Source of the DNA: Thermodesulfobacteriota bacterium
Lineage (GTDB): Bacteria; Desulfobacterota; UBA8473
Direction of reading: 5' to 3'
Length of the DNA stretch: 64,000 nucleotides
NCBI GenBank assembly: GCA_040757775.1
Contig: JBFLWQ010000002.1
Location: 62,001-126,000 of the forward strand
Of this stretch, positions 12,763 to 29,608 are shown one piece after another; the first letter of the stretch is position 1, and each line of letters opens with the position of its first letter. The position numbers and the translations under genes are program-made. The notes beneath the pieces are model-generated. The model did not search any database, had not been told where the DNA came from, and worked only from the letters and a program-made list of their open reading frames with translations.

Positions 12763-12769
12763 AGGTTTT

Positions 12770-12798: not shown

Positions 12799-12885
12799 GT
12801 TATTTGTGATAATTTGACCTGTAGTACAAATTTATTGTTACCAATGTCGGATACTTCAAAACCATCCATTGCTCATTTAGTCTTT

Positions 12886-12940: not shown

Positions 12941-12941
12941 G

Positions 12942-13154: not shown

Positions 13155-13202
13155 ATTACATCTCCTTCCTTTACCTTATCGGTAGGAGATGCTCTCCTCT
13201 CT

Positions 13203-13234
13203 ACAATCTTTATCTACAATGAAAATTTTGCTCC
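13203..13234. repeat. 32-base dispersed repeat, copy 1
   Basis: Begins ACAATCTTTATCTAC and ends ATTTTGCTCC. The matching copy at 18710-18741 differs at one base. Both lie beside toxin-type genes. Confidence 0.8.
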
Positions 13235-13287
13235 TCAAGAAAAGTGGTTATCTCGGTACGCCCCGGTTCACGGTTCGCAAATAGCCA

Positions 13288-13370
13288 TGAACACCCACAA
13301 CAATGGGCTTTAGCCCATTGGCCCCCTACCCTTTCCTTCAGGCAGACACTTGAAGCTGTATGTATTCAAA
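13288..13370. repeat. Island repeat copy 4
   Basis: The first hairpin CAATGGGCTTTAGCCCATTG is perfect; the second is decayed (GACACTTGAAGCTGTATG). It lies between the DUF2283 and Fic genes. Confidence 0.8.
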
Positions 13371-13404
13371 AGGTTAAGCATCTTCTTTACACTATCGGGA
13401 TTTA

Positions 13405-13473
13405 ATGTAAATAAAAGGGTATTAAGTTTACATAAATAGGTTTAAATGTAAAACAAGAAGCGGTATTTTACAT
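13405..13473. promoter_or_regulatory. Array of four alternating ATGTAAA/TTTACAT sites
   Basis: ATGTAAA at 13405 and 13446 alternate with TTTACAT at 13427 and 13467, at 22, 19 and 21-base steps. The near two-helical-turn spacing suggests a protein-binding array. A minus-strand TTGACA lies at 13475-13480. Confidence 0.35.
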
Positions 13474-13476
13474 GTG

Positions 13477-14610: not shown

Positions 14611-14666
14611 GTCAGAGTATCCTCCTATTCAACCTCTATTTCAAATTGCCGTTGATTCCCTTTCAG

Positions 14667-14822
14667 TTAGGAGTTCTTTTGCAAGAAATCCTTCTCCGGC
14701 TCCGTCCGCCTGCATATTATATCCCGAATTTCAAGCCTCTTATCATCAACAGTAAAAGACAACGGCTTTTCATTTGCTTTATATCCAGAGTATGAGGTAA
14801 CCTCGTTGACGCGAATACTCAC
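14667..14822 (-). pseudogene. Small ORF remnant beginning inside a repeat
   Basis: A frame of 51 codons whose first in-frame GTG lies in island repeat copy 5. It reads VTSYSGYKANEKPLSF, then LEIRDIICRRTEPEKDF, then a stop. The composition looks like a real protein (a small beta-rich protein seen near DUF2283/Fic-type modules), but there is no ribosome site. Probably a truncated gene joined to the repeat. Confidence 0.4.
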
Positions 14823-14955
14823 AACAATGGGCTTTAGCCCATTGCTTGCTCCCTTTTTCCTTGTTTCAGATAGGCAGCCTTCCTTCAGACAGACAACCTT
14901 GCCTTAGACAGACAACTAAAGCTGTTTGTTGTATCTGGATGAGAGAGGCGGTCAT
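14813..14955. repeat. Island repeat copy 5 (expanded)
   Basis: The first hairpin is CAATGGGCTTTAGCCCATTG. The CAGACAGACAACCTTGCC unit is then duplicated before a decayed second hairpin (ACTAAAGCTGTTTGT), and the tail GATGAGAGAGGCGGTCAT follows. Confidence 0.8.
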
Positions 14956-15036
14956 CTATTTTTTAAGGCCAAAATCAAGCCCGATCTAAAATCCCTTCAT
15001 ATTCTTTCCATACATTTAACTCGGTCCGATTCAGGT

Positions 15037-15252
15037 TCAGCCGCTAGTGGATATCTCCATAGCCTCAAATTCTATTTTTCGCGTCTGGGTCACTCGCTTT
15101 GAGGCATCCAGAATTTCAAGTGAAACGAGGTCACCTTCGTGGTCATAATCCAGGATCACACCCGGCTTATCCTCATCGCTTTCAGCGACCGTGCTTTCTT
15201 CTTTAAATATTACTGTAAGTGTGTCCGTTATTGGATCATAGAAAACTTTCAT
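15037..15252 (-). CDS. DUF2283 small protein
   Basis: 71 residues: MKVFYDPITDTLTVIF, a run of acidic residues, then GVILDYDHEGDLVSLEILDA, the DUF2283 pattern. GGAGGG precedes the ATG. The bases just upstream still encode a methyltransferase C-terminal tail (see 15253-15310), so this gene may have landed on an older gene end. No adjacent toxin is evident; its role is unknown. Confidence 0.8.
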   Translation of the reverse strand: MKVFYDPITDTLTVIFKEESTVAESDEDKPGVILDYDHEGDLVSLEILDASKRVTQTRKIEFEAMEISTSG

Positions 15253-15310
15253 GGCTCATCCCTCCAATAACGTAGAGTTGATACACCATCCGGTCAATCT
15301 CCCGTTTCTT
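15253..15310 (-). pseudogene. Remnant of an N6-methyltransferase C-terminal tail
   Basis: The minus strand reads KKREIDRMVYQLY in frame. This matches the tail of the intact methyltransferase at 23000-26353 (EKEIDQLVYQLY), and the DNA itself is similar (GTAGAGTTGATACACCA is shared). The GL(S/T)EEE part is lost at the junction with the DUF2283 ribosome site. Confidence 0.6.
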
Positions 15311-15377
15311 TGTTCAAAGGGTCGTTTTTTGCCCTGTAACACTCTCGGCTAAGAAACTATAGTGCCCCCTTTGTGAC

Positions 15378-15821
15378 CTATTTCAGAATAGTCTTAAACA
15401 GACTTTCCATTGTCGCGAAGAAGTTCTTAGCAGATTTAAGGGCATTTTCCGCATCCTCTTTGGTCGAAAAGAAACTAAGGTCATACTGGTCATTATGCCT
15501 TATTTCCCTGCTATGGTCTAACAATTCTACCCATTTGTTATCCAGCTTACCGGTTTTAACGTACTTCTCTTCAAGATATCTTGCCACACAGGCATGGCTC
15601 TTTTCCCGGAAGCCATCAAAAAACAGGATAGTCCTGGCTGCATGAAACATTACCATATAAGAAGCTAGAATTGACGAGTTAAACGCATCTCCCATTAAAG
15701 AATTCTCCGCTTCCTTCAACCACTCTCGTGCCTTTTTTAAAGATTGCATGGCCTTACCTTTTGAAGGCGGGATTTTTCTAAGCAACCCTTCTCTCATACA
15801 ATCATTATAATTGAATGGCAT
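15378..15821 (-). CDS. HEPN-domain protein (toxin partner of MNT)
   Basis: About 147 residues from MPFNYNDC; the frame is open a little further upstream. Four helices with ARTILFFDGF, SHACVARYLEEKY and the REIRHNDQY stretch identify a HEPN domain. Proteins of this pairing are RNases or toxins that the adjacent MNT nucleotidyltransferase neutralises by adding AMP to a C-terminal tyrosine motif. The start overlaps the MNT stop by 17 bases, so the two are translationally coupled. A truncated copy lies at 18879-19040. Confidence 0.85.
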   Translation of the reverse strand: MPFNYNDCMREGLLRKIPPSKGKAMQSLKKAREWLKEAENSLMGDAFNSSILASYMVMFHAARTILFFDGFREKSHACVARYLEEKYVKTGKLDNKWVELLDHSREIRHNDQYDLSFFSTKEDAENALKSAKNFFATMESLFKTILK

Positions 15822-16344
15822 CTTTTTCACCGTAAATGACGATTGAACCAAATGCCAATGAGTGGTAGAAAAGCTCGTCGTCTTCTTTCATTTTCTCAAT
15901 CTTCTTGGTAGTTAAGAATAGAGGCTTTACATTCTTTATTTTCTTATTCATTTGGGCACTTAAAGAAGCGACTTCCTCATCGCTTACGTCCTTAATCTTT
16001 ATCCAGAGGTCCACGTCAGACTCATCTGCATTTTCGCCTTTGGCGCAGCTTCCATAAAGGCCAACGGCTTCCACAAAGTCAAACTTTTTAAAAATTTTTA
16101 CATCAATACCAGTTATATTCAATAAAATTTTGGTGGCTTTTGTGACTGCCGAATTAGTAACAAGGTATTTACCATTCGACCTTCTGGCGATTCCCTCTTT
16201 AGCCAAAATATCAAGATATTTAGAAACCAGCCCTTTGCTTATATTAAGCCTGGCGGCAATGACATTGACACTGATAGACTGCTCGCTAAAGATAACAGAC
16301 TTCAGTATCTTGATCCGTTCTTTTGTAGAAAAAATGCTTTCCAC
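15805..16344 (-). CDS. MNT nucleotidyltransferase antitoxin with HTH
   Basis: Starting at the GTG at 16344 (179 residues): AGGAGG lies 6 bases upstream, and the duplicate copy has ATG at the same codon, so the longer frame beginning inside the operator is rejected. Residues ~20-70 form a helix-turn-helix (ARLNISKGLVSKYLDIL). The nucleotidyltransferase site is GLYGSCAKGENADESDVDLW, with GS and D-x-D intact. The protein probably neutralises the HEPN partner and represses its own operon at the two palindromes upstream. Confidence 0.88.
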   Translation of the reverse strand: MESIFSTKERIKILKSVIFSEQSISVNVIAARLNISKGLVSKYLDILAKEGIARRSNGKYLVTNSAVTKATKILLNITGIDVKIFKKFDFVEAVGLYGSCAKGENADESDVDLWIKIKDVSDEEVASLSAQMNKKIKNVKPLFLTTKKIEKMKEDDELFYHSLAFGSIVIYGEKDAIQL

Positions 16345-16362
16345 TCTTGCCTCCTGACAAAT

Positions 16363-16419
16363 GTTCACAATATATGAACGATTTGTTCACATTTTATGAA
16401 CATCTAAGCAGATTGTCAA
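16363..16419 (-). promoter_or_regulatory. Autoregulated promoter of MNT-HEPN copy 1
   Basis: On the minus strand, TTGACA (16414-16419), a 17-base spacer and TAAAAT (16391-16396). Two palindromes of form GTTCA-N7-TGAAC lie at 16363-16379 and 16385-16401, their centres 22 bases apart; the upstream one covers the -10. Confidence 0.75.
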
Positions 16420-16441
16420 GGAAAACTCACAAAATAGCTGT

Positions 16442-16531
16442 GAATACTCACAACAATGGGCTTTAGCCTATTGTTCTTCTAGCACAGACAGCTGAAGCTG
16501 TCTGTTGCGTCTGAATGGGAGGATCGGTCAT
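16442..16531. repeat. Island repeat copy 6
   Basis: The first hairpin is imperfect (CAATGGGCTTTAGCCTATTG), the second is AGACAGCTGAAGCTGTCT, and the tail is GAATGGGAGGATCGGTCAT. It lies between MNT-HEPN and BrnTA. Confidence 0.85.
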
Positions 16532-16618
16532 GTTAAGCTTTTACATCTATTCATTATAGTGTCGTCCAATGCTTAGGTTAAGAGGCAGGAATGAAGCACA
16601 GAAAAATGAGTATCCTTC

Positions 16619-16858
16619 TCAAACCTGTTGCTCCCCATTTTCAGTCTGCCATTTCATGTGCAGTTTTCGGTGATTAACGGCACAATCACGAAGATAAAGG
16701 TTTATTAAGTTTTGGTAAGGAATACCCGATTCTTCCGACATAGACTTGAAATATGAAACAGTGTCACGGTCGAGCCGCATAGTAACCGGTTGTTTTAAAT
16801 ATTTTATATAGGGATTTTTAAGTCCCTTCATTTTGGAAAAATCGTAATGGTCTCTCAT
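16619..16858 (-). CDS. brnA: BrnA-type antitoxin
   Basis: 79 residues with a ribbon-helix-helix-like core: MRLDRDTVSYFKSMSEESG followed by IPYQNLINLYLRD. The gene overlaps brnT by 4 bases (ATGA) in the usual toxin-first order. BrnA binds BrnT and represses the operon, in keeping with the palindrome over the promoter. Confidence 0.88.
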   Translation of the reverse strand: MRDHYDFSKMKGLKNPYIKYLKQPVTMRLDRDTVSYFKSMSEESGIPYQNLINLYLRDCAVNHRKLHMKWQTENGEQQV

Positions 16859-17148
16859 CTTCTATGCCTCCAGTATTCATTTTCTTCATCGCCATCTGCT
16901 TTTCTTGCAGAAATAATTCTAATAACCGTGTTGCTTTCCCGAAAACAATGACAGACGACGAGAACCCTAAGTCTAAAACTTATTCCAAGCAGTATGAAAC
17001 GGTCTTCATCATTGGAATGGTCAGGGTCAAAAAATTGAATCGCATTTTCATCGTAAAAAACTGTGCGAGCTTCATCGAAAGAAATGCCATGTTTTTTTAT
17101 GTTAGCCTTTTCCTTCCGTTTATCCCATTCAAACTGTAGCTCAGTCAT
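16855..17148 (-). CDS. brnT: BrnT toxin (DUF497 ribonuclease)
   Basis: 97 residues: FEWDKRKEKANIKKHGISFDEA, then DRFILLGIS and IRIISARKA near the C terminus, the full DUF497/BrnT pattern with the RelE-like fold residues present. BrnT cleaves RNA and halts translation when BrnA is lost. The -10 box ends 6 bases before the ATG, so the mRNA would be nearly leaderless. Confidence 0.92.
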   Translation of the reverse strand: MTELQFEWDKRKEKANIKKHGISFDEARTVFYDENAIQFFDPDHSNDEDRFILLGISFRLRVLVVCHCFRESNTVIRIISARKADGDEENEYWRHRR

Positions 17149-17150
17149 AT

Positions 17151-17182
17151 GTACATTGTACTTATAATTATGAAAATGTCAA
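17151..17182 (-). promoter_or_regulatory. brnTA promoter and operator
   Basis: On the minus strand, TTGACA (17177-17182), a 16-base spacer and TACAAT (17155-17160). The perfect palindrome GTACA-T-TGTAC (17151-17161) covers the -10, the expected place for BrnA autorepression. Confidence 0.75.
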
Positions 17183-17201
17183 GATTTCAGTTCGTTGACG
17201 T

Positions 17202-17476
17202 GAATACCCACAACAATGGGCTTTAGCCTATTGTTCTTCTAGCACAGAGAGCTAAAGCTGTCTGTTGCAGCCGAGGATAGACAGCTTCGCTTCAGACAGA
17301 CAACCTTGCCTCAGACAGACAGCTGAAGCTGTCTGTTGAGCCTGTAGAATAAGTCCCTTTCTAAGATTTTTCAAAAAATAATATTCAATAAAAACAGTAG
17401 GTTACAAAATGCCTAGGTATTGATTTATGGGTTTTTCTACAGACTCGTTATGTCCGAATGAGAGAATTGGTTATCA
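17202..17476. repeat. Island repeat copy 7, expanded and interrupted
   Basis: The first hairpin starts near 17211. The second-hairpin unit occurs twice (about 17255 and 17320). An extra ~105-base segment (17342-17450), bounded by CCTGTAGAA and TTTTCTACAG, separates them from the tail GAATGAGAGAATTGGTTAT (17454-17472). Confidence 0.75.
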
Positions 17477-17625
17477 GTCTCTTCCTTCCACAATCGCAAT
17501 TTTCTCCTCGGTCAAACCGCAGAGCTTATAAACAAGCTGGTCAACTTGTTTTTCGTATTTTTTGAGCCCATAGTCATTATAAAATGTCCCCTGATAATGT
17601 CCCTTATTGTCCTTTAACGATGTCC
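17474..17625 (-). pseudogene. Remnant of an N6-methyltransferase C-terminal end
   Basis: The minus strand reads YEKQVDQLVYKLCGL then TEEKIAIVEGRD and a stop. This is the same tail as the intact methyltransferase at 23000 (WEKEIDQLVYQLYGLSEEE, then IKIVEG). The frame runs back to 17625 and merges with the GGGACAT-type tandem motif at the Fic 3' end. The rest of the gene is missing. Confidence 0.75.
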
Positions 17626-17643
17626 CTTAATGTCCCTTATTTT
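17580..17643. repeat. Short tandem motif ATGTCCCTTA at a Fic 3' end
   Basis: Five imperfect copies of a TGTCCC/TTA unit run across the Fic stop codon and into the methyltransferase-tail remnant. Slippage or a junction scar are both possible. Confidence 0.6.
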
Positions 17644-18693
17644 TTCTATCACTTTCGACGATAGGATATAATAAGTGCCTTTCCTCTCGCCAATCTTTTT
17701 AAGTATATCTTTTTCAACAAGTCCCGTTAAATCTCTCGTGGCTGTTCTTTTGGTGCTATTGCAAATTTTTTGACACAGCGAGTTATCTATTCGCTCATTA
17801 ATTACCAAATACCGAATAATCTTTTCCTGCCTTATATTTAATCTCATGTCCTTTAATAATTTGACAGTTTTATCAGTAATGATAATCTGCTTGCCCCTCT
17901 CGTAAATTTCTGCCATCTGCGATCTTAAACCGTCCACAAAGTATTCAAGCCATGCTGTCATATCCATGTTGCTTTCCCTAACGGATTGAATCGCTTTGTA
18001 GTATGCCGGACGGTCTTTGTCGTAGTATTCTGAAATTGTAAACAATCTTTTAAAATCGTAACCGGTTTTATAAAGAATCATTGTGGATAGGAGCCGGGCT
18101 GTTCTACCATTGCCATCAATAAATGGATGAATATGCACAAATTGAAACTGAGATATACCGGCAACAAGAATAGGCGAGATATCCCCTGCTTCATTGAGCC
18201 ATTCTATAAACTCACGCATAAGGTGCGGAACCTCAAGAGGTGCAGGAGGGGTGTATATAACCTCACGGGTCCGGGAATTAACGACATAATTCTGTACCTT
18301 GCGATAATTACCTGGGTCCGCTTGGCCGCCACGAACACCTTTCACAGTAACCTTGTGAAGTTCACGGATTATACCTTCGGTAACCGGATCATCCCTGCCG
18401 AGATATTTTGAGATAAAATCCATTGCTTTCTTGTAATTTAAAAGCTCTTTTTCGTCATCCCGGTTAATGCCTTTAAGTTTTTTACCTTCTAAAATACTCT
18501 TTGCTTGTTCAAGGGTTAATGCCGTGCCTTCAATGTGTGTGGAATGGTGCGACTCAAGAATTAATGCGTTTTTTTGCATATCAGCAATCCATTCATCCTT
18601 GAGTTTCACCGCATCAAGAAATCCACGCACTCGCTCTATTTCAACAAGCGCCTTATTCATCTTTGGAGTTATGGCAAATTCAGGTTTAAACAT
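17614..18693 (-). CDS. Fic-family protein with N-terminal inhibitory motif
   Basis: About 359 residues from MFKPEFAITPKM; a GTG 18 bases upstream is also possible. The catalytic loop HPFIDGNGRTAR is intact. STHIEG near the N terminus fits the (S/T)xxxE(G/N) inhibitory helix, so it should be self-inhibited. A winged-helix region (NSTKRTATRDLTGLVEKDIL) ends the protein. Predicted to AMPylate proteins; the target is unknown. The last codons overlap a tandem GGGACAT motif. Confidence 0.92.
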   Translation of the reverse strand: MFKPEFAITPKMNKALVEIERVRGFLDAVKLKDEWIADMQKNALILESHHSTHIEGTALTLEQAKSILEGKKLKGINRDDEKELLNYKKAMDFISKYLGRDDPVTEGIIRELHKVTVKGVRGGQADPGNYRKVQNYVVNSRTREVIYTPPAPLEVPHLMREFIEWLNEAGDISPILVAGISQFQFVHIHPFIDGNGRTARLLSTMILYKTGYDFKRLFTISEYYDKDRPAYYKAIQSVRESNMDMTAWLEYFVDGLRSQMAEIYERGKQIIITDKTVKLLKDMRLNIRQEKIIRYLVINERIDNSLCQKICNSTKRTATRDLTGLVEKDILKKIGERKGTYYILSSKVIEKIRDIKGHR

Positions 18694-18709
18694 TTTATTT
18701 TTTGCCCCC

Positions 18710-18741
18710 ACAATCTTTATCTACGATGAAAATTTTGCTCC
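18710..18741. repeat. 32-base dispersed repeat, copy 2
   Basis: Same segment as 13203-13234 with one substitution; it overlaps the 5' end region of the Fic gene. Confidence 0.8.
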
Positions 18742-18751
18742 CCTACACTTT

Positions 18752-18800
18752 GCTTGAGACAGACAACTTTGCCTAAGACAGACAGCTGAAGCTGTCTGTT
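18752..18800. repeat. Island repeat copy 8 (second hairpin only)
   Basis: Two GACAGACA units lead into AGACAGCTGAAGCTGTCT. The first hairpin and the usual tail are absent. Confidence 0.75.
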
Positions 18801-18841
18801 GCGTTTCCTTTCATACTATTTCTAGCTAGAGAGTTAGCTCA
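18780..18841. repeat. 62-bp direct repeat flanking the second MNT unit, left copy
   Basis: Identical by eye to 19731-19792. It begins with the AGACAGCTGAAGCTGTCT hairpin and ends AGAGAGTTAGCTCA. Confidence 0.9.
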
Positions 18842-18878
18842 GCCTGATTCCTATTCGTCAATTGATCGAAAAAGTTTT

Positions 18879-19040
18879 TTAGAATTTGAAGGACGTCCCC
18901 CTTCTTCTCTCTTTTAAAGAATTCTCCGCTTCCTTCAACCACTCTCGTGCCTTTTTTAAAGATTGCGTGGCCTTACCTTTTGAAGGCGGGATTTTTCTAA
19001 GCAATCCCTCCCTCAGGCAATCGTTATAATTAAATGGCAT
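18879..19040 (-). pseudogene. Truncated HEPN gene
   Basis: Opens MPFNYNDCLREGLLRKIPP exactly like the HEPN at 15378, but after ENSL (about residue 42) homology stops and an unrelated tail (KERRRGTSFKF) ends the frame. The HEPN catalytic core is absent, so no toxin activity is expected. Confidence 0.85.
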
Positions 19041-19563
19041 CTTTTTCTCCGTAAAGAACGATTGAGCCGAATGACAATGAGTGATAGAAAAGCTCGTCGT
19101 CTTCTTTCATTTTCTCAATCTTCTTGGTAGTTAAGAATAGAGGCTTTACATTCTTTATTTTCTTATTCATTTGGGCACTTAAAGAAGCGACTTCCTCATC
19201 GCTTACGTCCTTAATCTTTATCCAGAGGTCCACGTCAGACTCATCTGCATTTTCGCCTTTGGCGCAGCTTCCATAAAGGCCAACGGCTTCCACAAAGTCA
19301 AACTTTTTAAAAATTTTTACATCAATACCAGTTATATTCAATAAAATTTTGGTGGCTTTTGTGACTGCCGAATTAGTAACAAGGTATTTACCATTCGACC
19401 TTCTGGCGATTCCCTCTTTAGCCAAAATATCAAGATATTTAGAAACCAGCCCTTTGCTTATATTAAGCCTGGCGGCAATGACATTGACACTGATAGACTG
19501 CTCGCTAAAGATAACAGACTTCAGTATCTTGATCCGTTCTTTTGTAGAAAAAATGCTTTCCAT
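19030..19563 (-). CDS. MNT nucleotidyltransferase antitoxin, orphan copy
   Basis: 177 residues from the ATG at 19563 (MESIFSTKERIK). Almost identical to the 15805 gene, with differences only at the start codon and in the last ~15 codons (FHSLSFGSIVLYGEKDAI). HTH and GS...D-x-D site are intact. Its HEPN partner is truncated, so it is an orphan antitoxin that could still act on the first HEPN or on its promoter. AGGAGG lies before the ATG. Confidence 0.88.
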   Translation of the reverse strand: MESIFSTKERIKILKSVIFSEQSISVNVIAARLNISKGLVSKYLDILAKEGIARRSNGKYLVTNSAVTKATKILLNITGIDVKIFKKFDFVEAVGLYGSCAKGENADESDVDLWIKIKDVSDEEVASLSAQMNKKIKNVKPLFLTTKKIEKMKEDDELFYHSLSFGSIVLYGEKDAI

Positions 19564-19581
19564 TCTTGCCTCCTGACAAAT

Positions 19582-19638
19582 GTTCACAATATATGAACAA
19601 TTCGTTCACATTTTATGAACATCTAAGCAGATTGTCAA
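19582..19638 (-). promoter_or_regulatory. Promoter and operators of MNT copy 2
   Basis: Same layout as copy 1: TTGACA (19633-19638), 17-base spacer, TAAAAT (19610-19615). Palindromes lie at 19582-19598 and 19604-19620; the inner flanks carry two substitutions but the TGAAC/GTTCA arms remain. Confidence 0.7.
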
Positions 19639-19660
19639 ACAAAACCCACAAAATAGCTGT

Positions 19661-19752
19661 GAATACCCACAACAATGGGCTTTAGCCCATTGCCCCCCTA
19701 CCCTTTCCTTCAGGCAGACAGCTTTGTTTGAGACAGCTGAAGCTGTCTGTTG
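19661..19752. repeat. Island repeat copy 9
   Basis: Perfect first hairpin CAATGGGCTTTAGCCCATTG, then AGACAGCTGAAGCTGTCT at 19731-19748. It is the rightmost copy, at the edge of the PHP-ATPase gene. Confidence 0.85.
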
Positions 19753-19792
19753 CGTTTCCTTTCATACTATTTCTAGCTAGAGAGTTAGCTCA
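19731..19792. repeat. 62-bp direct repeat, right copy
   Basis: Identical to 18780-18841. The two bracket the truncated-HEPN/MNT unit. Confidence 0.9.
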
Positions 19793-19834
19793 ATCCGACT
19801 CCGGTTCAGGTTCATAATAGTCTTATCTATAGAA

Positions 19835-22747
19835 TTACAAATTATATCTCTGTCGTCTAACTCGAAATGCTTCAGCACCACCCTCCATAATTTCTATAAC
19901 AGCTCTAACGATATCATCGTTATCAATAGAACCATGTCTGAGAACTTCCGCCTTTCTATCACTAATTGCATTTAGTACGATGACTTGTTCTGCGTCTCCT
20001 GATACAACAATATTCGGATTATGTGTACAGACTATAATTTGACGCCTTTCCTTGAGTGCCGCAAGGATATCGGTAAGGACTTTACCGATTAATTTATTAT
20101 CGAGATTATCTTCTGGCTGGTCAATTACAAGGGGTGTAGTTTCAGATAAAGCAATCAAAGGCAACATTGCGCTTGACCTCTGGCCCGGCGAGAGTTCACT
20201 TACAGGACGATCATTCAAAAGTATACTCACTTCATCATCCCATTCGACTTCTTCTAATTCTATAAGGTGTAGAAGCTTATCACCATTTTCGACTAGGCAA
20301 TCAACATCCGCAGCATCATCTCTTGACCATGGTGTGCACGTATCCATTGCCTTTTTGGCTTCTGCGTTTGAAATTGTTATAGTTGTATCATTTATAGTGA
20401 CCTGTCCTTCTAATAAGCTTGGCTGATTATCTATAAAAACACGTGATAGAGTGACTGGATTAAATTTTACACCAAAAAATTGTGGTATCTGCCGCGCTTT
20501 GTAATTTTTAGCAATACATGATGCAATCTTACTGGACCTATTTATTAGCTCGTTAGTGTCGCCACCAGCGATAAATCTAAGAGAAACTTTCATTTCAGCA
20601 CCAAAGAAATGATTCAGTTTCTCTTCAATGTTATTATTTTGTCTAGCACGTATGCCTGCGATACGATCTTGGCAGTTAATTAGATCATCGCCAATTGCCC
20701 GGTTAATACCTATAGTTTCCTTAAGCTTACTCCATACTTTTAGATATTCGTCTCGAAGTGCTGATGCCTCACGAAGTCGCTTCTCAGCGTTTGTTCGGAG
20801 GTCAGCAATACGCTGCAACGAAGCATCTTCTGAAAAAGCCGTTCTTATATTTGCATGAGTACGAGAGATGTCTTCGTCAATTAATATTGTATGCTGATTA
20901 ATTAGAGTTGACAGACTTTCAAGTGTTTTTATTGCTGCAGTGATATACTTTTGAATCTCAGCCTCATTCTCTACAATCTTTAATTTGGTAATTTCGTCTG
21001 TTAACCACCAGTCCCCTAATTCTTGTTCTGCCTGGCTCAAAATGTCATCAATGTTATCTCTGAATGTCACTTCAGTAATATCAATTATTTTATTTAATAG
21101 TTTTGATATGTTTGAATTGACCTGTTCGAGAACTCTCTTTTTATTCTGCGCTAAATCTAAGGCCATGAAATATGTTTTAATTTCCGTTGTATTGAGTTTA
21201 TCAAATGCTGCTTTGTATTCAGTGTAACGTTGGATAATTCCATTTTTTTGTATAAATTTATCTTTAAGTTCATTAATGATTTTTTCAATTTCCTTCCTAT
21301 TGGATCTTAACTTAGCGCGAATGTTATTCCGCTCATTAATAATTGACGCCAAATCAGGTATTAATCTGTCCAAAAGATCTCTCTGCCTTGCTGATTCACG
21401 GCCCAATGTTTCAATTTCACTCCATCCAAAAAGACGTAAGGGGTATTCTCCACTCGTCTCAATATCTGAAATGTTTAAAAAGTCACCTGATTCAGAAAAA
21501 ACCTTACTTGCATAGTCCTCATTTGGATCAAAAGTGGCTTCAAGAACGCACCTCTCCTTGTTAACTGTCTGGTAAGCTACCCTTATTAAACATCCTGAAA
21601 GATTTGCACGCTGTAAACTCTTGATTCGATCTGAAAGCCTATTTGTTGTATCCAGTTCACTAAGTGTCCTATTGTAACCGAATACATAGCGCAGTGCTTC
21701 TACAATTGTCGATTTTCCCGAACCGCGAGGACCTATTAGACAGTTCAGATTTTCTGCAAGGGCTATATGAATGTTTTTAAACAAAGAATTATTTGTACCA
21801 ACAATTTCAACCCCAACTAAGCGTGGGTTAGGTGGAACAGGAAGGTCTATTGAGAACCGAACCCTAGTTTCTGCAAATTGAAGTGCTTCTCTAAGTCCTT
21901 TCACACTTAGATTAGTCATCTTGACCCAAGTAATTCGATCAAGGCGGTTGAAATCCTCCACTCTATGAGCATCAAAACTCATGATGACTGGAATACTCAC
22001 TTCTATTCCATCACATTTCGATATCCATCTGTAATGACGTTGATCTGATGCTTTTGCGACTTCAATTGCATCGAAGCCAACGGAAAAAAGATATTCCTTC
22101 AAAATATCGGAAATTTCCTGTTCATTTTCTTTACTTCCTGCTGTACCGGGAGAAACCAAGCTTATTACTTCACGCCCGGTTTGTCTGAATTGACTTCGGA
22201 TTCCTTGTTGCGAATTTACATGGGCTGCAACACATAAACCTTTTTCTTCATGAATCCTTTTAATGAATTCTTTCAATCCTAGATTAGTTATAAGCTCATT
22301 ACCTGTTCGCTGAGCATCATCTGGTATGCCTGACAAACCTGAAAAGAGTCTAGAAAATTTTTCAGGAGATGATGATTCCGGCAGAATGGCTAGAATGTGC
22401 AATCTAGCACTACTTACAGCAGCTTCTGGCTGAATATTAATTTCCATTCCAGGTACTGCTAAAAATTCACCATATGTTTGGCTCAGACGCGAGACTTTAC
22501 TTGCATAACCACATTTCATATGATCTGTAATTGCTACAAGATCGATATGAGGTTTTAGGGCATCAATAAATTGCATCTCACCATTCTCTGCAAGATACAT
22601 ATCCCGATCATTGAGTGCTTTATCACAAGGCTGATCTGCCCAATCGCAGCTCTCTGGCGAATGGAGGTGCAACGCCACACGACGAAAGCGTGCTGTGCGT
22701 TTCCTCAAATCATCTAATCTTTTGAAAAATTGGTCGTAGGATGACAT
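19835..22747 (-). CDS. PHP domain-SMC-like ATPase (TrlF-like)
   Basis: 970 residues. The N-terminal PHP phosphoesterase has HLHSPESCDW and ITDHM metal ligands, with more His near VAAHVN and MSFDAHR. An ABC/SMC-type ATPase follows: Walker A GPRGSGKST (about 345), a long helical middle (about 480-730), signature LSPGQRSSAML, Walker B PLVIDQPEDNLDN and the switch His in IIVCTHNPNIV. The order fits TrlF-type AAA-like ATPases. A nucleic-acid-directed, nuclease-like role in defence is inferred from the domains and the neighbouring methyltransferase/helicase pair. GGAGGT precedes the ATG. All visible catalytic residues are retained. Confidence 0.85.
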   Translation of the reverse strand: MSSYDQFFKRLDDLRKRTARFRRVALHLHSPESCDWADQPCDKALNDRDMYLAENGEMQFIDALKPHIDLVAITDHMKCGYASKVSRLSQTYGEFLAVPGMEINIQPEAAVSSARLHILAILPESSSPEKFSRLFSGLSGIPDDAQRTGNELITNLGLKEFIKRIHEEKGLCVAAHVNSQQGIRSQFRQTGREVISLVSPGTAGSKENEQEISDILKEYLFSVGFDAIEVAKASDQRHYRWISKCDGIEVSIPVIMSFDAHRVEDFNRLDRITWVKMTNLSVKGLREALQFAETRVRFSIDLPVPPNPRLVGVEIVGTNNSLFKNIHIALAENLNCLIGPRGSGKSTIVEALRYVFGYNRTLSELDTTNRLSDRIKSLQRANLSGCLIRVAYQTVNKERCVLEATFDPNEDYASKVFSESGDFLNISDIETSGEYPLRLFGWSEIETLGRESARQRDLLDRLIPDLASIINERNNIRAKLRSNRKEIEKIINELKDKFIQKNGIIQRYTEYKAAFDKLNTTEIKTYFMALDLAQNKKRVLEQVNSNISKLLNKIIDITEVTFRDNIDDILSQAEQELGDWWLTDEITKLKIVENEAEIQKYITAAIKTLESLSTLINQHTILIDEDISRTHANIRTAFSEDASLQRIADLRTNAEKRLREASALRDEYLKVWSKLKETIGINRAIGDDLINCQDRIAGIRARQNNNIEEKLNHFFGAEMKVSLRFIAGGDTNELINRSSKIASCIAKNYKARQIPQFFGVKFNPVTLSRVFIDNQPSLLEGQVTINDTTITISNAEAKKAMDTCTPWSRDDAADVDCLVENGDKLLHLIELEEVEWDDEVSILLNDRPVSELSPGQRSSAMLPLIALSETTPLVIDQPEDNLDNKLIGKVLTDILAALKERRQIIVCTHNPNIVVSGDAEQVIVLNAISDRKAEVLRHGSIDNDDIVRAVIEIMEGGAEAFRVRRQRYNL

Positions 22748-22815
22748 TTTTACCTCCTACCCTTTAGGTTACAGTTACTTTTCCGGATTAGATACTCTTT
22801 CGATCAACATAATTT

Positions 22816-22989
22816 TTAGGGAAATATGCATTTTCTTGAAAGATTGTCTTTACTGGAAGGCAAACAGCCGTAGCTTTCCCAGTAATTACCGAGAATGTAT
22901 AAGCCAAGATCCTGCGCATGTTGCAATACATTGTTATCCAGAAATATTCTGCCGGGAATGAGATGGAAACGGGTCAAATCATCCCGCAA
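22816..22989 (-). pseudogene. Short ORF remnant (possible PIN-like piece)
   Basis: A frame open from a stop at 23007 to TAA at 22816, readable from TTG at 22989. It contains FHLIPGRIFLDNNVLQHAQ then LGLYILGNYWE. The FLDNNVLQ string recalls the first Asp strand of PIN-like proteins, but the ORF is only about 57 codons and ends early. Probably a truncated gene lying directly after the methyltransferase. Confidence 0.4.
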
Positions 22990-22999
22990 TTTTATCTGT

Positions 23000-25900
23000 T
23001 CAACGAGCTATTTCGTTTACACCTTCCACTATTTTAATCTCCTCCTCGCTCAGGCCGTAGAGTTGATACACCAACTGGTCAATTTCCTTCTCCCACGTGG
23101 ACGTATCCGCCTGCAAATTTGTGCGCTTGGCCGCCAGGATGTGGTCCACCAGTTTTGTGAGTAACCTTTCTGCTTCAATAGGTATAGTTAGAACAGGAAG
23201 TTTTCCAACTGTGTTTGCTTGAATTTCAGAAAACACTGTTTTAGTGGATTTGAATTTTCTCTTGTAAATATAGTTCATCAATCGTGAGTTTAGCAGCGCG
23301 AGCAGGCACTTAAGATTATTTACTGTAGCAGACTCTCTCAAATTCACAACTACTAATGTGTTCAATGCAAAATATTGTTCGTTATCATAGGCAAATATCA
23401 AGTCTTCTGAAACGCGTCTAAAAAACAGTTTTTCTTTGGTAAGAAAAATGTCTTTTGTTTTACATGAGTGTATTCTTTTCAAGTCCCAATCTAGATAAAC
23501 GCCATCCCATTGAATGTGGTACTTGCCAATATTTCTACCATCTAGTTTCTTGTAATACTTACCTTTAGGGTTTGATGTATATAAAGAAAGGCTTCTGTCT
23601 CCTTTGAGAGCAATGGCTTGATTTATGTAGCAGAACTCATCAAGTGGGCGTACATCAAGTGAATATATCTTGTCAATAAGATTGTCTGAATTGACATTGA
23701 TAGTAAAGTTGGGATTAGCCAAGAATTTGCTATTTGAGTTTCGTTCCACGAGATTCATCTTGTCTAAGTCATCAATAAAAATTTCTATTTCATATTGGTG
23801 TAGTGTTTCCTTGCTTGCAATAATTGTTACATTTTCAACAATTGCTTCCTCAAAGGGTAGTTCAGAATATTGAACAATTATTCTAAAGCGATTCTTTTTG
23901 AGTAGTAATTCTCTTGTTGCACTGTAATATTCTTGTGTAAGTATCGTGTTCGGGATAATAAATGCTAAATTACCTCTATTTTTTAGAATGCCAAATGCTA
24001 GGTGTATAAAGAAAATAAACGTGTTTAAACGACCACCAGATGTATTAAATCTGTTTTTGAGGAATTTTTTATACCAGTCAGGTGTGCCTGCAACTTTTGA
24101 CAATTGGATGTACGGCGGATTCGCAATCATCACATCAAACCCACCCTTCCCATGAAACACCTCTGAAAAATGTGTATGAAAGTCAAAAGTAATATCCTGA
24201 ATTGAAGGATAAACTTTTTTCATACTGTCTATCAACTTTAAAAACAGGTTGTTAATTATACCCCTGATTTTATTTTTTTCAGATGGGTTTGTAGAGTTAA
24301 AATATAGTTTCTTATTTTCCTCTAATTTGTTGCTAACTTCACAATCAATAAGTACACCATCAGGTAACCCCAACAAAGAATTCCCGCACACAATCTTATA
24401 ATCCAGGTTCGGCAACGGTTTAATCTGCTTTATATCTTCTTCATCGACAACGAGCGACAGCCACAGCCGCAGTTTGGCAATCTCCACCGCACCCGGGTCA
24501 ATGTCCACGCCGTACAGGGAATATTCGATGCAGCGGCGTTTGAGATTATATGTATTGCGTTCGTTATCAATTGAGCATGTAACAGCGGGCTTAAGCCCGC
24601 TGTTGTGCCCGCTGTTATTCAAATAAATCGACAGTACACTTCTCGCCTTCACGATCTCACCCATCATGCCAACAGGAAAGGCGCCGGAGCCAACTGCCGG
24701 ATCACAAACGGTAATATCCGCCAATTTATCATCAATCAGTTTGGCATTTTTTCGGATACTTTCCGGCAGTTGATGGTAATAGGTCTTTGTCTCTTTTCCC
24801 TTACTCAACACCCTTACCTCGTTCTCACTTACCTGTTCGCCCAGGTGAATCAGGGTTACAATATCCTCCTTTGAAATCTCAGTATTTTTATGCTCAATCA
24901 CTATGTCCAACTGTCCCTTTTTCGCTTCATTGCCTAACATATCGAGATTACTATCACCGAGCTTTTCATAACTGGTTATGCCGCTGTTCAGTTCAGTAAA
25001 CAAGTAGTTTATCAAACTCTGCTGACACATGTAATGCACGATTTCACGCGGGGTGTAATAGACGCCGAACTGTTTGTTGAACTTGGTTTCATCGCCTTTT
25101 CTGCCGCTCTTCAGAGCCTTCTTGTATTCCTCAAAGTTATCGGGCCGGATGGCATTGAACTTCTCGTAGGCTTTACCAAGCAGTTCCGGGTCAATGGCAA
25201 CCTCTTTTTCCAGCGGTTCATCCTCTTTTACAGTAAAATTGTAACGGTCAAAGATGTCCAGGATGCCGTCGCCGGTATCGCCTTCTTTGGTCTTATCATT
25301 GTTGGAAAACAGGCTGTCAGGAAGTTTAATATCGGTATGCACCCAGTCGTAATTGCCGATGGGGTCGAAGAGACCGCCGTTTAAGAAAGGGATTTTGCAG
25401 TTGAAACGGCTGTAATAATAATTGTCCTGTTTCCGTTCTTCTCCAACTCGCAGGGCTTCGTAAAATAGAGGCTCCAGAATATCGTTGAAGAAATTCTCGT
25501 AGCTGCTGTGCTTTTTCTCGAAGAGCTCTCTTAAAAATTGCTTGGAACCGTCACCCCAGTCGGCATCGCGGGCAACACCAAACCATCCCTTTTTCTGGAG
25601 AAAATAAAGAAACACAATCTGTCCCAACAGTTTCTTGGCAAAGTCAACGGTGTTCACACCTTTGGGCTCAAAGTCTGCTTTCATTCGGGTGTTTCCTTCA
25701 AGCTCTTTATCCAAAGCCTCTTTGGTGCGGATAAACAGATCGCGGTATTTAAGGAAGAATTCTTTGGTAACGGTTTCGATGTTGAAAGCTTCTTCCAGTT
25801 GTTTCAGTGTGGGATTACGATCAATGTCGGCAAGGATTTTGACCAACCGGCTCTGGGCGGTGTGGCTGTTTTCGTTGGCGCCAACCAGAAAGGACCAGCG

Positions 25901-26353
25901 CCGGGCAGGGGTAAACTCTTCTTTTACTTTTCCGTTTTCATCAAATTTATAATCCATTTTGACCAGTGAAAAGCGCCAGTCCATGTCATCGGGGGAGACA
26001 AATGCCGCCAGTGCTGCGTCCTTCAAGTCCCCGCCTCGACTGCCGTTTAAGTACCAGGCAATGAAATTCCTCTGCATGGTGCGAGCACGTTCGATGGAAG
26101 TTTCCTTTCTGAGATGGATAATCAGTATATCTATCTTATGTTCGCCGTCACTATACTTGGCGATTCTCTCAAGGGTGCTTATGTGCTGCTCAAATGCATC
26201 AGGGATGTAGTTGCCCTTATAGACAAAAGGCACTTCTTCAATACGGTTTAAGAGGTTCCTGATGAAATTGACAAATCTATTTTTATCGAAGGGCAGTTCA
26301 AATGTTTCTTGAATGATGCGTCGTGCCTGTTGTCTATCCATCTGTTTACCCAT
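23000..26353 (-). CDS. Eco57I-family N6-adenine DNA methyltransferase
   Basis: 1117 residues. A helical N-terminal region (ERARTMQRNFIAWYLNG, MDWRFSLVKMDY) is typical of large type II/ISP-like R-M proteins. YYTPREIVHYMCQQSL leads into motif I (DPAVGSGAFPVGMM, about 550), YGVDIDPGAVEIAKLRLW, and motif IV NPPYIQLS. A TaqI-like target-recognition region and the tail EIDQLVYQLYGLSEEE end the protein. It presumably methylates adenine to mark self DNA. No nuclease motif is evident, so cutting may depend on the PLD-SNF2 partner immediately upstream. Oddity: a palindromic repeat is inserted in frame after motif I (about residues 579-591). Confidence 0.88.
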   Translation of the reverse strand: MGKQMDRQQARRIIQETFELPFDKNRFVNFIRNLLNRIEEVPFVYKGNYIPDAFEQHISTLERIAKYSDGEHKIDILIIHLRKETSIERARTMQRNFIAWYLNGSRGGDLKDAALAAFVSPDDMDWRFSLVKMDYKFDENGKVKEEFTPARRWSFLVGANENSHTAQSRLVKILADIDRNPTLKQLEEAFNIETVTKEFFLKYRDLFIRTKEALDKELEGNTRMKADFEPKGVNTVDFAKKLLGQIVFLYFLQKKGWFGVARDADWGDGSKQFLRELFEKKHSSYENFFNDILEPLFYEALRVGEERKQDNYYYSRFNCKIPFLNGGLFDPIGNYDWVHTDIKLPDSLFSNNDKTKEGDTGDGILDIFDRYNFTVKEDEPLEKEVAIDPELLGKAYEKFNAIRPDNFEEYKKALKSGRKGDETKFNKQFGVYYTPREIVHYMCQQSLINYLFTELNSGITSYEKLGDSNLDMLGNEAKKGQLDIVIEHKNTEISKEDIVTLIHLGEQVSENEVRVLSKGKETKTYYHQLPESIRKNAKLIDDKLADITVCDPAVGSGAFPVGMMGEIVKARSVLSIYLNNSGHNSGLKPAVTCSIDNERNTYNLKRRCIEYSLYGVDIDPGAVEIAKLRLWLSLVVDEEDIKQIKPLPNLDYKIVCGNSLLGLPDGVLIDCEVSNKLEENKKLYFNSTNPSEKNKIRGIINNLFLKLIDSMKKVYPSIQDITFDFHTHFSEVFHGKGGFDVMIANPPYIQLSKVAGTPDWYKKFLKNRFNTSGGRLNTFIFFIHLAFGILKNRGNLAFIIPNTILTQEYYSATRELLLKKNRFRIIVQYSELPFEEAIVENVTIIASKETLHQYEIEIFIDDLDKMNLVERNSNSKFLANPNFTINVNSDNLIDKIYSLDVRPLDEFCYINQAIALKGDRSLSLYTSNPKGKYYKKLDGRNIGKYHIQWDGVYLDWDLKRIHSCKTKDIFLTKEKLFFRRVSEDLIFAYDNEQYFALNTLVVVNLRESATVNNLKCLLALLNSRLMNYIYKRKFKSTKTVFSEIQANTVGKLPVLTIPIEAERLLTKLVDHILAAKRTNLQADTSTWEKEIDQLVYQLYGLSEEEIKIVEGVNEIAR
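24581..24617. repeat. Palindromic repeat inserted in frame in the methyltransferase
   Basis: A perfect 24-bp palindrome built on GCGGGCTTAAGCCCGC is followed by a second half copy (GCCCGCTGTT). On the coding strand it contributes NSGHNSGLKPAV. A degenerate copy occurs outside genes at 58056-58079. Confidence 0.85.
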
Positions 26354-26410
26354 ATTTATTCACACCTTCTTTTACGCAATAATGACGCATCAATGGCGCA
26401 ATTGACGCAA
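26354..26410. repeat. Short tandem ACGCAAT motif between helicase and methyltransferase
   Basis: ACGCAATaatgACGCAT, then GGCGCAAT and GACGCAAT: four imperfect 8-9-base units fill most of the 57-base gap. Function unknown. Confidence 0.5.
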
Positions 26411-29400
26411 TTATTTACCTGTTAAATACAACGACAGAATTACTTCCCGTTTGCCAAAAACCGTAGGGGTCTGTTCCGCATAGTGTTCGTCCAGAAGTTT
26501 TACCGGAATATTAGTCTGAAGCGCTGCCAGCACCTTGAAGGGATTCATAATTTCGCTCTTAAGTCCTTCCAGTGCTTTTGATGTCTGCTTTGCCGTCTGT
26601 TTTGGCAGCCCGCCTTCCTCAAGCTGAATCAATACCTTTTTCAGGTATAGCTCTTGGTCTTCTGTCAGCTTCTGGGTGTTCTTAAGGGTTGCTTTTAAAA
26701 CTCTCAGGATATTTGCCGCACTGTCGCGTCCGCCTCTTGTGGCGGCCTGTTGCGGCATTTCTTCAGTAGTTGCAAAAATGAAGGCCTCTTTGTTTTTATC
26801 CAGCAGGTCGTAGAAGTGCTCCGGCAATTTCTGCTTTTGCTCATCGGGATTGCTCTCCAGCAGTTTTGCAGCGGAGATGAAATCGAGTTCTGCTGTTTCC
26901 TGCTTAGTGCCGGCTTGAAAAAATTTTTGCAGTTTGCCCCGCCGAAAATAAGTAATAAGAGAATTTTCATGCCCGATGTTTTGCTTTGCGGTTCGTGCTT
27001 TTTTGGGAAGCCGTTTTACTTTCTCAAAAAGGTCAGGGTCTTTATCACGTATTTCTTTGATAGCATGGAGGTATTTCAATTCGCTTTCCTCCGCCCCGTC
27101 TTCACCTTCCAGCGTTTGTTTGGAAAATAATCGGTTAAAAAGCTCGTGCGAGCCGATGGGTTCACCCTCGGTCAACAGCTCGGCATCACCGCCCAGGAGG
27201 GTAAGAAAGGCATTGATCTTCGCTTCTGCTGCCTCTCTAAGCTTGATCTGGTCGTTGGATTGAACAGTGGGGAAGAAATTGAAGGTATAGATTGTGTCAT
27301 GCCTTGTATCCACCCGGTTGATACGGCCTACCCGCTGCATCATGCGTGTAGGATTCCAGGGGATATCGTAGTTGATGACCGTATTGGAGCGGTGTAAGTT
27401 GACCCCTTCAGACAATACTTCTGTAGAAACCAGTATCCGGTAATCGTCTTTGGGATGTCTGGCACGGGCATCAAAGTTCTCGATGACCTTATCGCGCGTG
27501 GCTTCACCCGAATCGCCGGTATAACACAACACCCTGTCCGGGTATTTTTGATGTAAATTCTTAAACAGATAGTTAGCTGTCTCCTTTGATTCCGTAAAGA
27601 TGATGATATGATTCTCTTTCAATGCCGAAGCCGTTGAAAGCTCACGCAAGAATTTTAGTAACTTTGGGTCGCGTTCAATATGCGTCCACAGTCTTTTGAT
27701 CTCCAGCAGAATGTCACGGTCATTCTGCAAATCATCTCTAAAGCCTTCTCTAAAATCACCGCTGTCGTATCTTTCTGCTTTGCCTTCATCAATCAAGCAT
27801 TGTACGGCTTCGTCGTCATCGTTTTCCAGAAGTTCAAAGATTTTATTTGTGTGCTTCTTACTCACATAGACATTGCCGTTGTCAAATTCCTTGATAAACA
27901 TTTCATAGGAGTGCAGGAACCTGTCCACTGAATTTCGAAAAGCAAAGAAACTGCTCTCCAGCCTTTTCACCAACAGAATCTTCATGAATTTACCCATGTT
28001 TCGCTGGGACAATTCTTCAGGCTGAGTTACCTTACCTTTGTAGTAGAGCATTGGCGTATAGCGGGCATACCTGAACTTTTGCGTTATCAGCTCGATGGTT
28101 TTGTTGAATATCTCGTCCTCTTTCTCATTGAGTTCATAAAAGAGCGGAGTTGGCTTTTCAACCTCGGGGAATCTCAATCCTTGTTGGGTAATATCCTTGA
28201 AAAAATACTTTTCAATTTCGGTGCGGGTTCGACGCACCATCAAATATTTCAGAACCTTTTCCCTGATCTCCCGGGCATTCTCTTTTACGGTGCGGATGTA
28301 TTTATCATAATCTTTCTGGCGATCCAGTCTTTTCAGTTTCTTGTCAAGACGGCTGAAAAAACCTTCCAGATCAGGCAGATTGGGAATCGTGCTTTTCCTG
28401 GCCGGTTGAAACAGTTTTAACAGGCTAAGAATATCCCTTGGTGCGTTGTTGTAAGGCGTGGCGGTAACCAGAACGACCCTTTTGCCGCGGCAGATTTCCG
28501 CCAGCTTCTCATAGGTAATTGTTGCTTCCGTTCTAAAGCGGTGTGCTTCATCTATAATTACATTTTGATATTTTTCAGTTCCGATGTATAGAAGATCGTC
28601 CAGTTTGCCAAGCGATTCAAAGCGTGTTTGCCTTACTCCGAAGTCTTCAAAAACATTAGTCCAGGAACCGGGGTTGGTTTTTTCGAGAAGCATCGGGGGT
28701 GCAATAACCAGGGTTCTACCTTCAAGCTGACCTGCCAGCATGGCTGAGATATAAGTCTTTCCTAATCCCACCACATCCGAAACAAAAACCCCGCCATATT
28801 CCAGCAGGATTTTTTTGGCGTTTAGAACTGCCTGTTCCTGGTATTCGAGCTTTTTAAACTCCTGGGGCAGATATTTCAAAAATAGCTCATCCGTCTGACT
28901 GAGTTCATCTTTGAAATACTCATAGAGAAATTTCAGATAAAGCTGATAGTGCGTGATATTCTGACTGAGCCATGTCTTTTCCTGTATGGTTTGAATGTAC
29001 TTTTCGCTCACCTCCACCGCATCTTTCCAGAGTTCTTCAAACTTCTTCCTGGCAAATTCATAATCGCTGCGGTTTTTCAACTCCACATTGAATTCCAGAT
29101 TGTCAATGAGTCCGGCCTGTGTGAAATTGCTGGAGCCAGTGATAACCCGCCCGGCATCTCTGTCGCCTTCAAAAAAAGTCATTATGTAAAGCTTGGCGTG
29201 GATGTTCTGTGAGGGATAAGCTCTGATTTCCAGCTTTTCGCCTCTGACCCATTCAATAAACTTATTGACCCCTTCTTCGACTTCCCTACGGTCTTCCGAG
29301 TCAGCCAGTTCCTCTTCTACGAGATTTTCTACTTTCTCTTTGGTTTCGGCATGTGAGAACTCTATGACCTGCTGCTTGGGCTTATCGCTATTGACAAGCA

Positions 29401-29608
29401 AATCGTAGGTCTGCCTGTCGGTGCTGATGCCAATCAGTATCCGGATTTTTTCTGTTTTCCCTAAGGATTTATACAGGGCATGGAAACCGCTGGTGTAGAA
29501 GTATCCAACCAGGCAGTCAAAAAAAGAAGTGTCTTTGATCAACACTTCAAATCTATCTTTCAGGCTTTGATTTTCTTCGTTGGTTATGAATGATAAATCG
29601 GTATCCAT
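26411..29608 (-). CDS. PLD nuclease-SNF2 helicase fusion
   Basis: 1065 residues. The N-terminal ~190 residues are a phospholipase-D-like nuclease with one HxK motif (IHAKLYI, about 135) and a following GSSNFTQAGL, so an active site would need a dimer. An SNF2/DEAD-type helicase follows: VGLGKTYISAM, IIDEAHRFR, VLVTATPYN, LVSTEVLSEGVNLH and MMQRVGRINRVD. It is transcribed first, 57 bases before the methyltransferase. The pairing suggests a two-gene restriction system in which this protein translocates and cuts DNA lacking the methyl mark. It resembles parts of DISARM (PLD plus SNF2 plus methyltransferase), but drmA and drmB are absent. Confidence 0.85.
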   Translation of the reverse strand: MDTDLSFITNEENQSLKDRFEVLIKDTSFFDCLVGYFYTSGFHALYKSLGKTEKIRILIGISTDRQTYDLLVNSDKPKQQVIEFSHAETKEKVENLVEEELADSEDRREVEEGVNKFIEWVRGEKLEIRAYPSQNIHAKLYIMTFFEGDRDAGRVITGSSNFTQAGLIDNLEFNVELKNRSDYEFARKKFEELWKDAVEVSEKYIQTIQEKTWLSQNITHYQLYLKFLYEYFKDELSQTDELFLKYLPQEFKKLEYQEQAVLNAKKILLEYGGVFVSDVVGLGKTYISAMLAGQLEGRTLVIAPPMLLEKTNPGSWTNVFEDFGVRQTRFESLGKLDDLLYIGTEKYQNVIIDEAHRFRTEATITYEKLAEICRGKRVVLVTATPYNNAPRDILSLLKLFQPARKSTIPNLPDLEGFFSRLDKKLKRLDRQKDYDKYIRTVKENAREIREKVLKYLMVRRTRTEIEKYFFKDITQQGLRFPEVEKPTPLFYELNEKEDEIFNKTIELITQKFRYARYTPMLYYKGKVTQPEELSQRNMGKFMKILLVKRLESSFFAFRNSVDRFLHSYEMFIKEFDNGNVYVSKKHTNKIFELLENDDDEAVQCLIDEGKAERYDSGDFREGFRDDLQNDRDILLEIKRLWTHIERDPKLLKFLRELSTASALKENHIIIFTESKETANYLFKNLHQKYPDRVLCYTGDSGEATRDKVIENFDARARHPKDDYRILVSTEVLSEGVNLHRSNTVINYDIPWNPTRMMQRVGRINRVDTRHDTIYTFNFFPTVQSNDQIKLREAAEAKINAFLTLLGGDAELLTEGEPIGSHELFNRLFSKQTLEGEDGAEESELKYLHAIKEIRDKDPDLFEKVKRLPKKARTAKQNIGHENSLITYFRRGKLQKFFQAGTKQETAELDFISAAKLLESNPDEQKQKLPEHFYDLLDKNKEAFIFATTEEMPQQAATRGGRDSAANILRVLKATLKNTQKLTEDQELYLKKVLIQLEEGGLPKQTAKQTSKALEGLKSEIMNPFKVLAALQTNIPVKLLDEHYAEQTPTVFGKREVILSLYLTGK

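Follow-up and report, generated by a model that had tools for sequence, protein, structure and literature searches.

A PLD-SNF2 helicase and an Eco57I-type methyltransferase form a conserved gene pair that likely encodes a two-subunit, ATP-dependent restriction-modification system with an accessory TrlF gene in a Thermodesulfobacteriota bacterium

Results

In a stretch of 64,000 nucleotides from a Thermodesulfobacteriota bacterium (GenBank assembly GCA_040757775.1, contig JBFLWQ010000002.1, positions 62,001 to 126,000; the whole stretch is called the window below), a gene for a PLD (HKD) nuclease fused to an SNF2/RapA-like translocase lies next to a gene for an Eco57I-type N6-adenine methyltransferase. 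These genes form a two-gene unit conserved across many phyla, and we consider it likely that they encode a two-subunit, ATP-dependent restriction-modification (R-M) system, to which a TrlF-family PHP-SMC/ABC ATPase gene has been added as an accessory. All three open reading frames (ORFs) were confirmed on the minus strand, in the order PLD-SNF2 (P0003, 1065 aa, 26411–29608, the predicted restriction or R subunit), methyltransferase (P0002, 1117 aa, IIG-like, 23000–26353, the predicted modification and specificity or MS subunit) and PHP-ATPase (P0001, 970 aa, 19835–22747, outside the core). The original prediction, made from the letters of the window, had described the first two genes as adjacent and co-directional with a gap of 57 bases, and the ORF coordinates bear this out; 252 bases separate the methyltransferase and PHP-ATPase genes. 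Its domain readings of the three genes likewise agree with profile matches and motifs. The neighbouring set of three holds for the source genome only.

Searched with P0003, bacterial and archaeal genomes yielded 80 loci, and 14 stretches from related genomes brought the set to 94, with a few genomes counted twice. The lineage labels of the 80 loci include Desulfobacterales, Nitrospirae, Spirochaetes, Bacteroidetes, Anaerolineales, Omnitrophota, Aminicenantes and Parcubacteria, among others. A relative of the methyltransferase was present in 86 of the 94 loci, nearly always directly downstream or past one or two small genes. The eight loci without it lie at contig ends, except for L078, where ample sequence remains. 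The source genome itself carries a second, diverged PLD-SNF2 and Eco57I-methyltransferase pair on contig 7 (L098, 7929–14954), with 32 and 27% identity to the pair in the window. Altogether, the PLD-SNF2 and methyltransferase genes are distributed like a two-gene unit that moves horizontally. The closest relative of P0003 (92% identical) is found in a metagenome-assembled genome (MAG) with another phylum label, Thermodesulfovibrionia, and exceeds the copy from the same genus (87% identical, at a different genomic place), which fits a mobile defence gene, and the helicase family is patchy in the host phylum (13 of 148 genomes). Carriage by phages was considered and rejected, with just two weak matches to phage records (at most 25.7% identity), and among plasmids the relatives of P0003 were all at 33% identity or less. 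A scan for sigma-70 promoters and terminators yielded 28 and 12, compared to 21.6 and 8.9 in shuffled sequences, and was not used given this little excess.

The 57-base R-M junction (26354–26410, minus strand) is a hotspot for inserted accessory genes in relatives; in roughly a third or more of these, one or two additional genes sit precisely between the R and M genes. These inserts include SLFN_AlbA_2/HATPase_c_4, Bro-N, PIN_3, RhuM, DUF3800 and AbiEii genes and, judged from translations only, nucleotidyltransferase/HEPN-like and HigBA-like pairs. The junction in the window holds no inserted gene.

Pfam profile searches identified PLDc_2, SNF2-rel_dom and Helicase_C domains in P0003. The HxK and GSSN motifs of the PLD nuclease, the Walker A motif and the DEAH motif were invariant in all 49 aligned relatives, and no variable region was seen along the protein; the lowest 50-residue block still reached an identity of 0.54. 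In AlphaFold models of P0003 and P0002 (mean predicted local distance difference test scores of 81 and 80 for the two models), the nearest folds to P0003 were RapA and SauUSI. The PADLOC HKD+Snf2 model C3a139 scored 151 bits for P0003 and 435 bits for its relative in L172. As a separate observation, the PLD-SNF2 genes of L072, L073, L074, L075 and L078, loci from several phyla, carry at residue 875 an insert of about 215 aa that leaves the frame intact. Its sequence was read in L072–L075, where it is bordered by QASSL/HRQDAC residues; it holds an IS200/RAYT-like Y1 transposase (PF01797, checked in L073 and L075) and may be domesticated or parasitic.

In P0002, Eco57I, N6_Mtase and TaqI_C domains were found by Pfam, and the DPAxGSG and NPP[YW] motifs were kept in all 47 aligned relatives. 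The nearest structure to its AlphaFold model was BrxX/PglX bound to DNA (9ewz), followed by CamA, MmeI/BpuSI and TaqI. Such a fold, together with matches of P0003 to the DrmD and BrxH profiles, would also suit an exclusion system that depends on modification as in bacteriophage exclusion (BREX) or the defence island system associated with restriction-modification (DISARM), blocking phage DNA without cutting, with the PLD domain degenerate or structural. We regard this as very unlikely, given the invariant HxK and GSSN motifs of the nuclease; moreover, whole-genome searches detected no PglZ, no DUF499 AAA+ ATPase and no MZB/DUF1998 (drmB-type) protein, the last of which is present in 8 of 14 control genomes.

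The PADLOC type IIG model matched P0002 with 1135.6 bits over most of the protein, and its fold resembles MmeI and BpuSI. The methyltransferase could hence be a self-sufficient type IIG restriction enzyme, with the PLD-SNF2 protein as an independent helper. Its N-terminal alpha/beta domain, however, has no (D/E)xK motif conserved among relatives; position 80 varies (Y/K/T/H/Q) while D75 is kept, and there is therefore no sign of a nuclease in the methyltransferase subunit. In addition, the PLD-SNF2 partner is nearly always present and co-evolves with the methyltransferase, and a type IIG enzyme acting by itself is thus quite improbable here. The original prediction was to fall if profiles placed the pair in a known R-M type; this happened for one half of the pair, as the type IIG label misses the partner.

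The two-subunit R-M system that we favor is further suggested by the distribution of variation along P0002. In 50-residue blocks, relatives mostly shared 42–83% identity with the window protein over the N-terminal and SAM (S-adenosylmethionine)-binding part (residues 1–745, 24119–26353, minus strand), which begins with the alpha/beta domain; the exception was a gap-rich block at residues 451–500 (25%). In contrast, identity dropped to 13–22% in residues 751–1050 (23204–24103, minus strand), a hypervariable target-recognition domain (TRD) region that holds the TaqI_C specificity domain, and the tail (residues 1051–1117) was conserved again. The TRD stretch has a GC content of 0.33 compared to 0.44 in the N-terminal part and 0.47 in the tail; its DNA is compositionally foreign.

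Co-variation was followed over 903 locus pairs from 43 loci. Identity between helicases predicted identity between the N-terminal parts of the methyltransferases (r = 0.62, reached by 0 of 2,000 permutations), whereas TRD identity was uncoupled from that of the helicases (r = 0.09). As the columns of a multiple sequence alignment can misalign TRDs, the comparison was redone with pairwise alignments, with the same outcome (r = 0.04). Where helicases were at least 85% identical, the median TRD identity was 26%, while some distant locus pairs have TRDs that are 60–78% identical; at 50% identity, the 43 loci fall into 31 TRD groups. Because of this uncoupling and the deviating GC content, the TRD is seen to be exchanged between loci as a module, independently of the helicase. 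The helicase-nuclease does not change along with the TRD, and most simply the nuclease would derive its specificity from the methyltransferase. On this indirect support, restriction specificity most likely resides there, as it does in type I, III and ISP enzymes.

Two loci with a broken methyltransferase bear on the same point. In genome G004 of the same genus (L099) the protein ends at about residue 440 and so lacks the SAM and catalytic motifs; L042 retains no more than its C-terminal end. Both loci keep a full-length PLD-SNF2 gene whose active sites are intact. An autonomous sequence-specific nuclease is therefore unlikely, since it would be expected to be lethal without a protecting methyltransferase.

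The third gene product, P0001, matched the NCBIfam TrlF model (NF045780) with 373.8 bits over residues 18–969, above the curated cut-off of 350, and also matched SMC_N/AAA profiles. Its PHP domain was not reported by Pfam at E ≤ 0.001; a motif search located the PHP metal-ligand motifs (HLHS27, TDH74, PGMEI99, AAHVN174, FDAHR258) and the ABC motifs (Walker A 339, signature 852, Walker B 874, H-loop 907). The G+C content at third codon positions (GC3) is 0.285, compared to 0.465 and 0.510 in its two neighbours, the genes of the pair. TrlF proteins like P0001 were absent from the other related genomes (148 searched, E ≤ 1e-40), and 33 of 395 genomes from the host phylum have a member of the wider family.

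TrlF recurs in R-M and BREX loci of several kinds. It lies between hsd genes of type I operons (L155, L157, L178, L181), in BREX loci (L161, L168), in an Hma locus (L173) and in a PglXI/DrmD-like locus (L158). Annotated records show the same, with hsdS-M-S-R-TrlF-mcrB in E. coli ET915, hsdM-S-TrlF-AlbA-R in Citrobacter, and BREX-TrlF in E. coli cq9 and Klebsiella. In L172, a diverged PLD-SNF2 and Eco57I-methyltransferase pair is followed by TrlF and then a broken TrlG, in the same order as in the window. R-M-type genes surrounded 9 of 32 inspected TrlF loci versus 2 of 28 random regions (one-sided Fisher p = 0.037); the first eight control regions had no clear R-M genes, and the control was extended to 28. 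It was also observed that an AlbA_2 (TrlG-like) gene usually comes directly after TrlF in loci L158–L186, and that the branch resembling P0001 lacks AlbA_2.

The original prediction had counted the PHP-ATPase as a third core member, and a true three-component system, with TrlF as an integral effector or regulator of the pair, would agree with the common strand and order of the window genes, with the TrlF gene after the diverged pair in L172, and with TrlF inside the hsd operons, including that of Citrobacter. Nevertheless, TrlF adjoined the pair in none of the 94 loci and in none of the 42 that have at least 4 kb beyond the methyltransferase. Among 16 genomes with the pair, three have TrlF, none of them inside the examined R-M locus. 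The gap of 252 bases and the deviating codon composition of P0001 also speak against such a system, and we regard it as unlikely. Since TrlF recurs in other R-M and BREX loci but in 0 of the 94 pair loci, it is best read as an accessory picked up by various such loci, the copy in the window being one instance, and as standing outside the pair. Conservation of the neighbourhood thus applies to two of the three genes. What remains of the proposed composite locus is a defence-type two-gene pair, with the PHP-ATPase as an accessory, as in L172 and in other R-M, BREX and Hma operons.

Next to the three genes, the window contains a cassette-like array (10068–19810) of Fic, nucleotidyltransferase/HEPN and DUF4143-ATPase genes on the same strand, parted by repeats with two hairpins (CAATGGGCTTTAGCCCATTG and ACAGACAGCTGAAGCTGTCTGT). 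In its own genome the first hairpin (CAATGGGCTTTAGCCCATTG) is confined to this array; it also occurs in three genomes of the same genus. An integron origin of the array was not supported, as integron-type integrases lie elsewhere in the genome with no repeat copy near them. Remnants of a methyltransferase C-terminal tail (LVYQLYGLTEEEIAIVEGRD*) sit beside array-repeat copies at 17483–17557 in the window and at 16240–16310 and 19440–19510 in L099; in G004 they are found downstream of the orthologous R-M pair. A stretch of 779 bases with a winged helix-turn-helix (wHTH)-nucleotidyltransferase gene is duplicated (15695–16473 and 18914–19692; 95% identity over the first 300 bases), and the HEPN partner is kept by the first copy only. 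The site resembles a variable position within a glycan locus, because a contig of the same genus (L213, G002 contig 49) matches the window at 6–8.7 kb and then carries a short repeat array and glycosyltransferase-like genes, with no R-M genes or TrlF past the array.

Discussion

An SF2 motor-nuclease and a TRD-bearing methyltransferase are conserved together, the combination that marks ATP-dependent R-M systems. The sequences show conservation of the pair, intact active sites, exchange of the TRD and association of TrlF with other R-M loci; that the two proteins form a complex, translocate, cut DNA and defend against phages is inferred, as is the part assigned to TrlF. In the proposed mechanism, P0002 would bind a short sequence via its C-terminal recognition domain and methylate an adenine on host DNA. 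P0003, itself without sequence preference, would dock on P0002 sitting at an unmethylated site, translocate along the DNA by its RapA/SNF2-like motor and cut via the PLD active site, probably formed where two copies meet. TrlF, acquired separately, might serve R-M loci as a second-line effector or a sensor of genome integrity.

Several points weigh against this interpretation. The defence function of the pair rests on family resemblance, and an IIG-like methyltransferase could in principle cut alone, even though no (D/E)xK is conserved in its N-terminal domain. L099 and L042 are MAG contigs that may be mis-assembled, or their hosts may be shielded by another methyltransferase. Finally, the association of TrlF with R-M loci is modest compared to random regions, and TrlF resides in defence islands anyway.

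Uncultured and environmental lineages commonly carry the pair. Annotation tools would record it as an orphan “type IIG” enzyme and a helicase, and its frequency and recognition motifs would then be overlooked. TRD exchange predicts that swapping one methyltransferase domain should retarget the motor-nuclease. If the pair works alone, it would offer a two-gene model for the helicase-methyltransferase module of DISARM, BREX-3, Hma and ARMADA, the mechanism of which is still debated. The various contexts of TrlF make it testable as a general add-on to R-M and BREX loci. The TrlF protein from the temperature-restriction locus of Photorhabdus (PMC7554251) belongs to the same NCBIfam family as P0001; P0001 differs in having no TrlG (AlbA_2) partner directly beside it.

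The components of the pair are related to DrmD/BrxHII and DrmMI/PglX. As in class I DISARM, an SNF2 helicase stands beside an adenine methyltransferase, and P0002 scored 110 bits to DrmMI; the pair, however, comes without drmA, drmB or drmC, and its nuclease is fused to the helicase. P0003 reached 136.4 bits to DrmD, where the curated cut-off is far higher at 610, and P0002 77.5 bits to PglX, with a curated cut-off of 500. The original prediction that the locus shares parts with DISARM without being DISARM was therefore correct. Type-2 BREX-related/Hma systems consist of a DUF499 ATPase, an N6-methyltransferase and an HKD-Swi2/Snf2 fusion (PMC12839542), and thus share with the pair the methyltransferase and the N-terminal HKD nuclease on a Swi2/Snf2 helicase; the genome studied here has no DUF499 protein, and P0002 is of the Eco57I/TaqI_C type. 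The true Hma locus in L173 scored 1441–1547 bits to HmaA/HmaB. Membership in DISARM, BREX and the DUF499-centred BREX-related/Hma systems was ruled out by signature genes absent from the genome.

Among R-M systems, type I, III and ISP enzymes (e.g., LlaBIII) resemble the pair in that a methyltransferase or TRD lends specificity to an SF2 motor-nuclease. They differ in that the pair consists of two polypeptides, has a PLD instead of a PD-(D/E)XK nuclease and carries the TRD inside the methyltransferase. Type IIG enzymes share the PADLOC model that P0002 fits over most of its length; P0002 has no conserved nuclease motif, though, and its PLD-SNF2 partner looks obligate. SF2 motors can drive PLD nucleases, the nuclease side then having a recognition domain of its own (PMC4267653, PMC7913695). 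CglI and NgoAVII are ATP-dependent R-M systems with a PLD nuclease and an SF2 ATPase; unlike in the pair, their R protein binds DNA through a B3 domain of its own, a separate gene encodes the ATPase, and an independent m5C enzyme serves as methyltransferase (PMC4267653). SauUSI, the structural match of P0003, combines a PLD nuclease with an SF2 motor in a single polypeptide, but is a type IV enzyme that reads 5mC with its own SRA domain and has no methyltransferase (PMC7913695).

While the single parts are already catalogued in PADLOC models, no published name or description of the two-gene set was found in the open-licence literature, in line with the original view that it fits no named system. 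Tentatively, it may stand for an unnamed, widespread class of ATP-dependent R-M systems that resembles a type-ISP enzyme split in two and equipped with a PLD nuclease. The helicase-methyltransferase core of this class would be a minimal stand-alone form of the DrmD/BrxHII and DrmMI/PglX module known from DISARM, BREX-3, Hma and ARMADA; its specificity would change by swapping of TRD cassettes, and its R-M junction would collect accessory defence genes. Compared with these systems, the pair is ordinary in kind, as an R-M system, and unusual in its build, with a specificity rule that can be tested.

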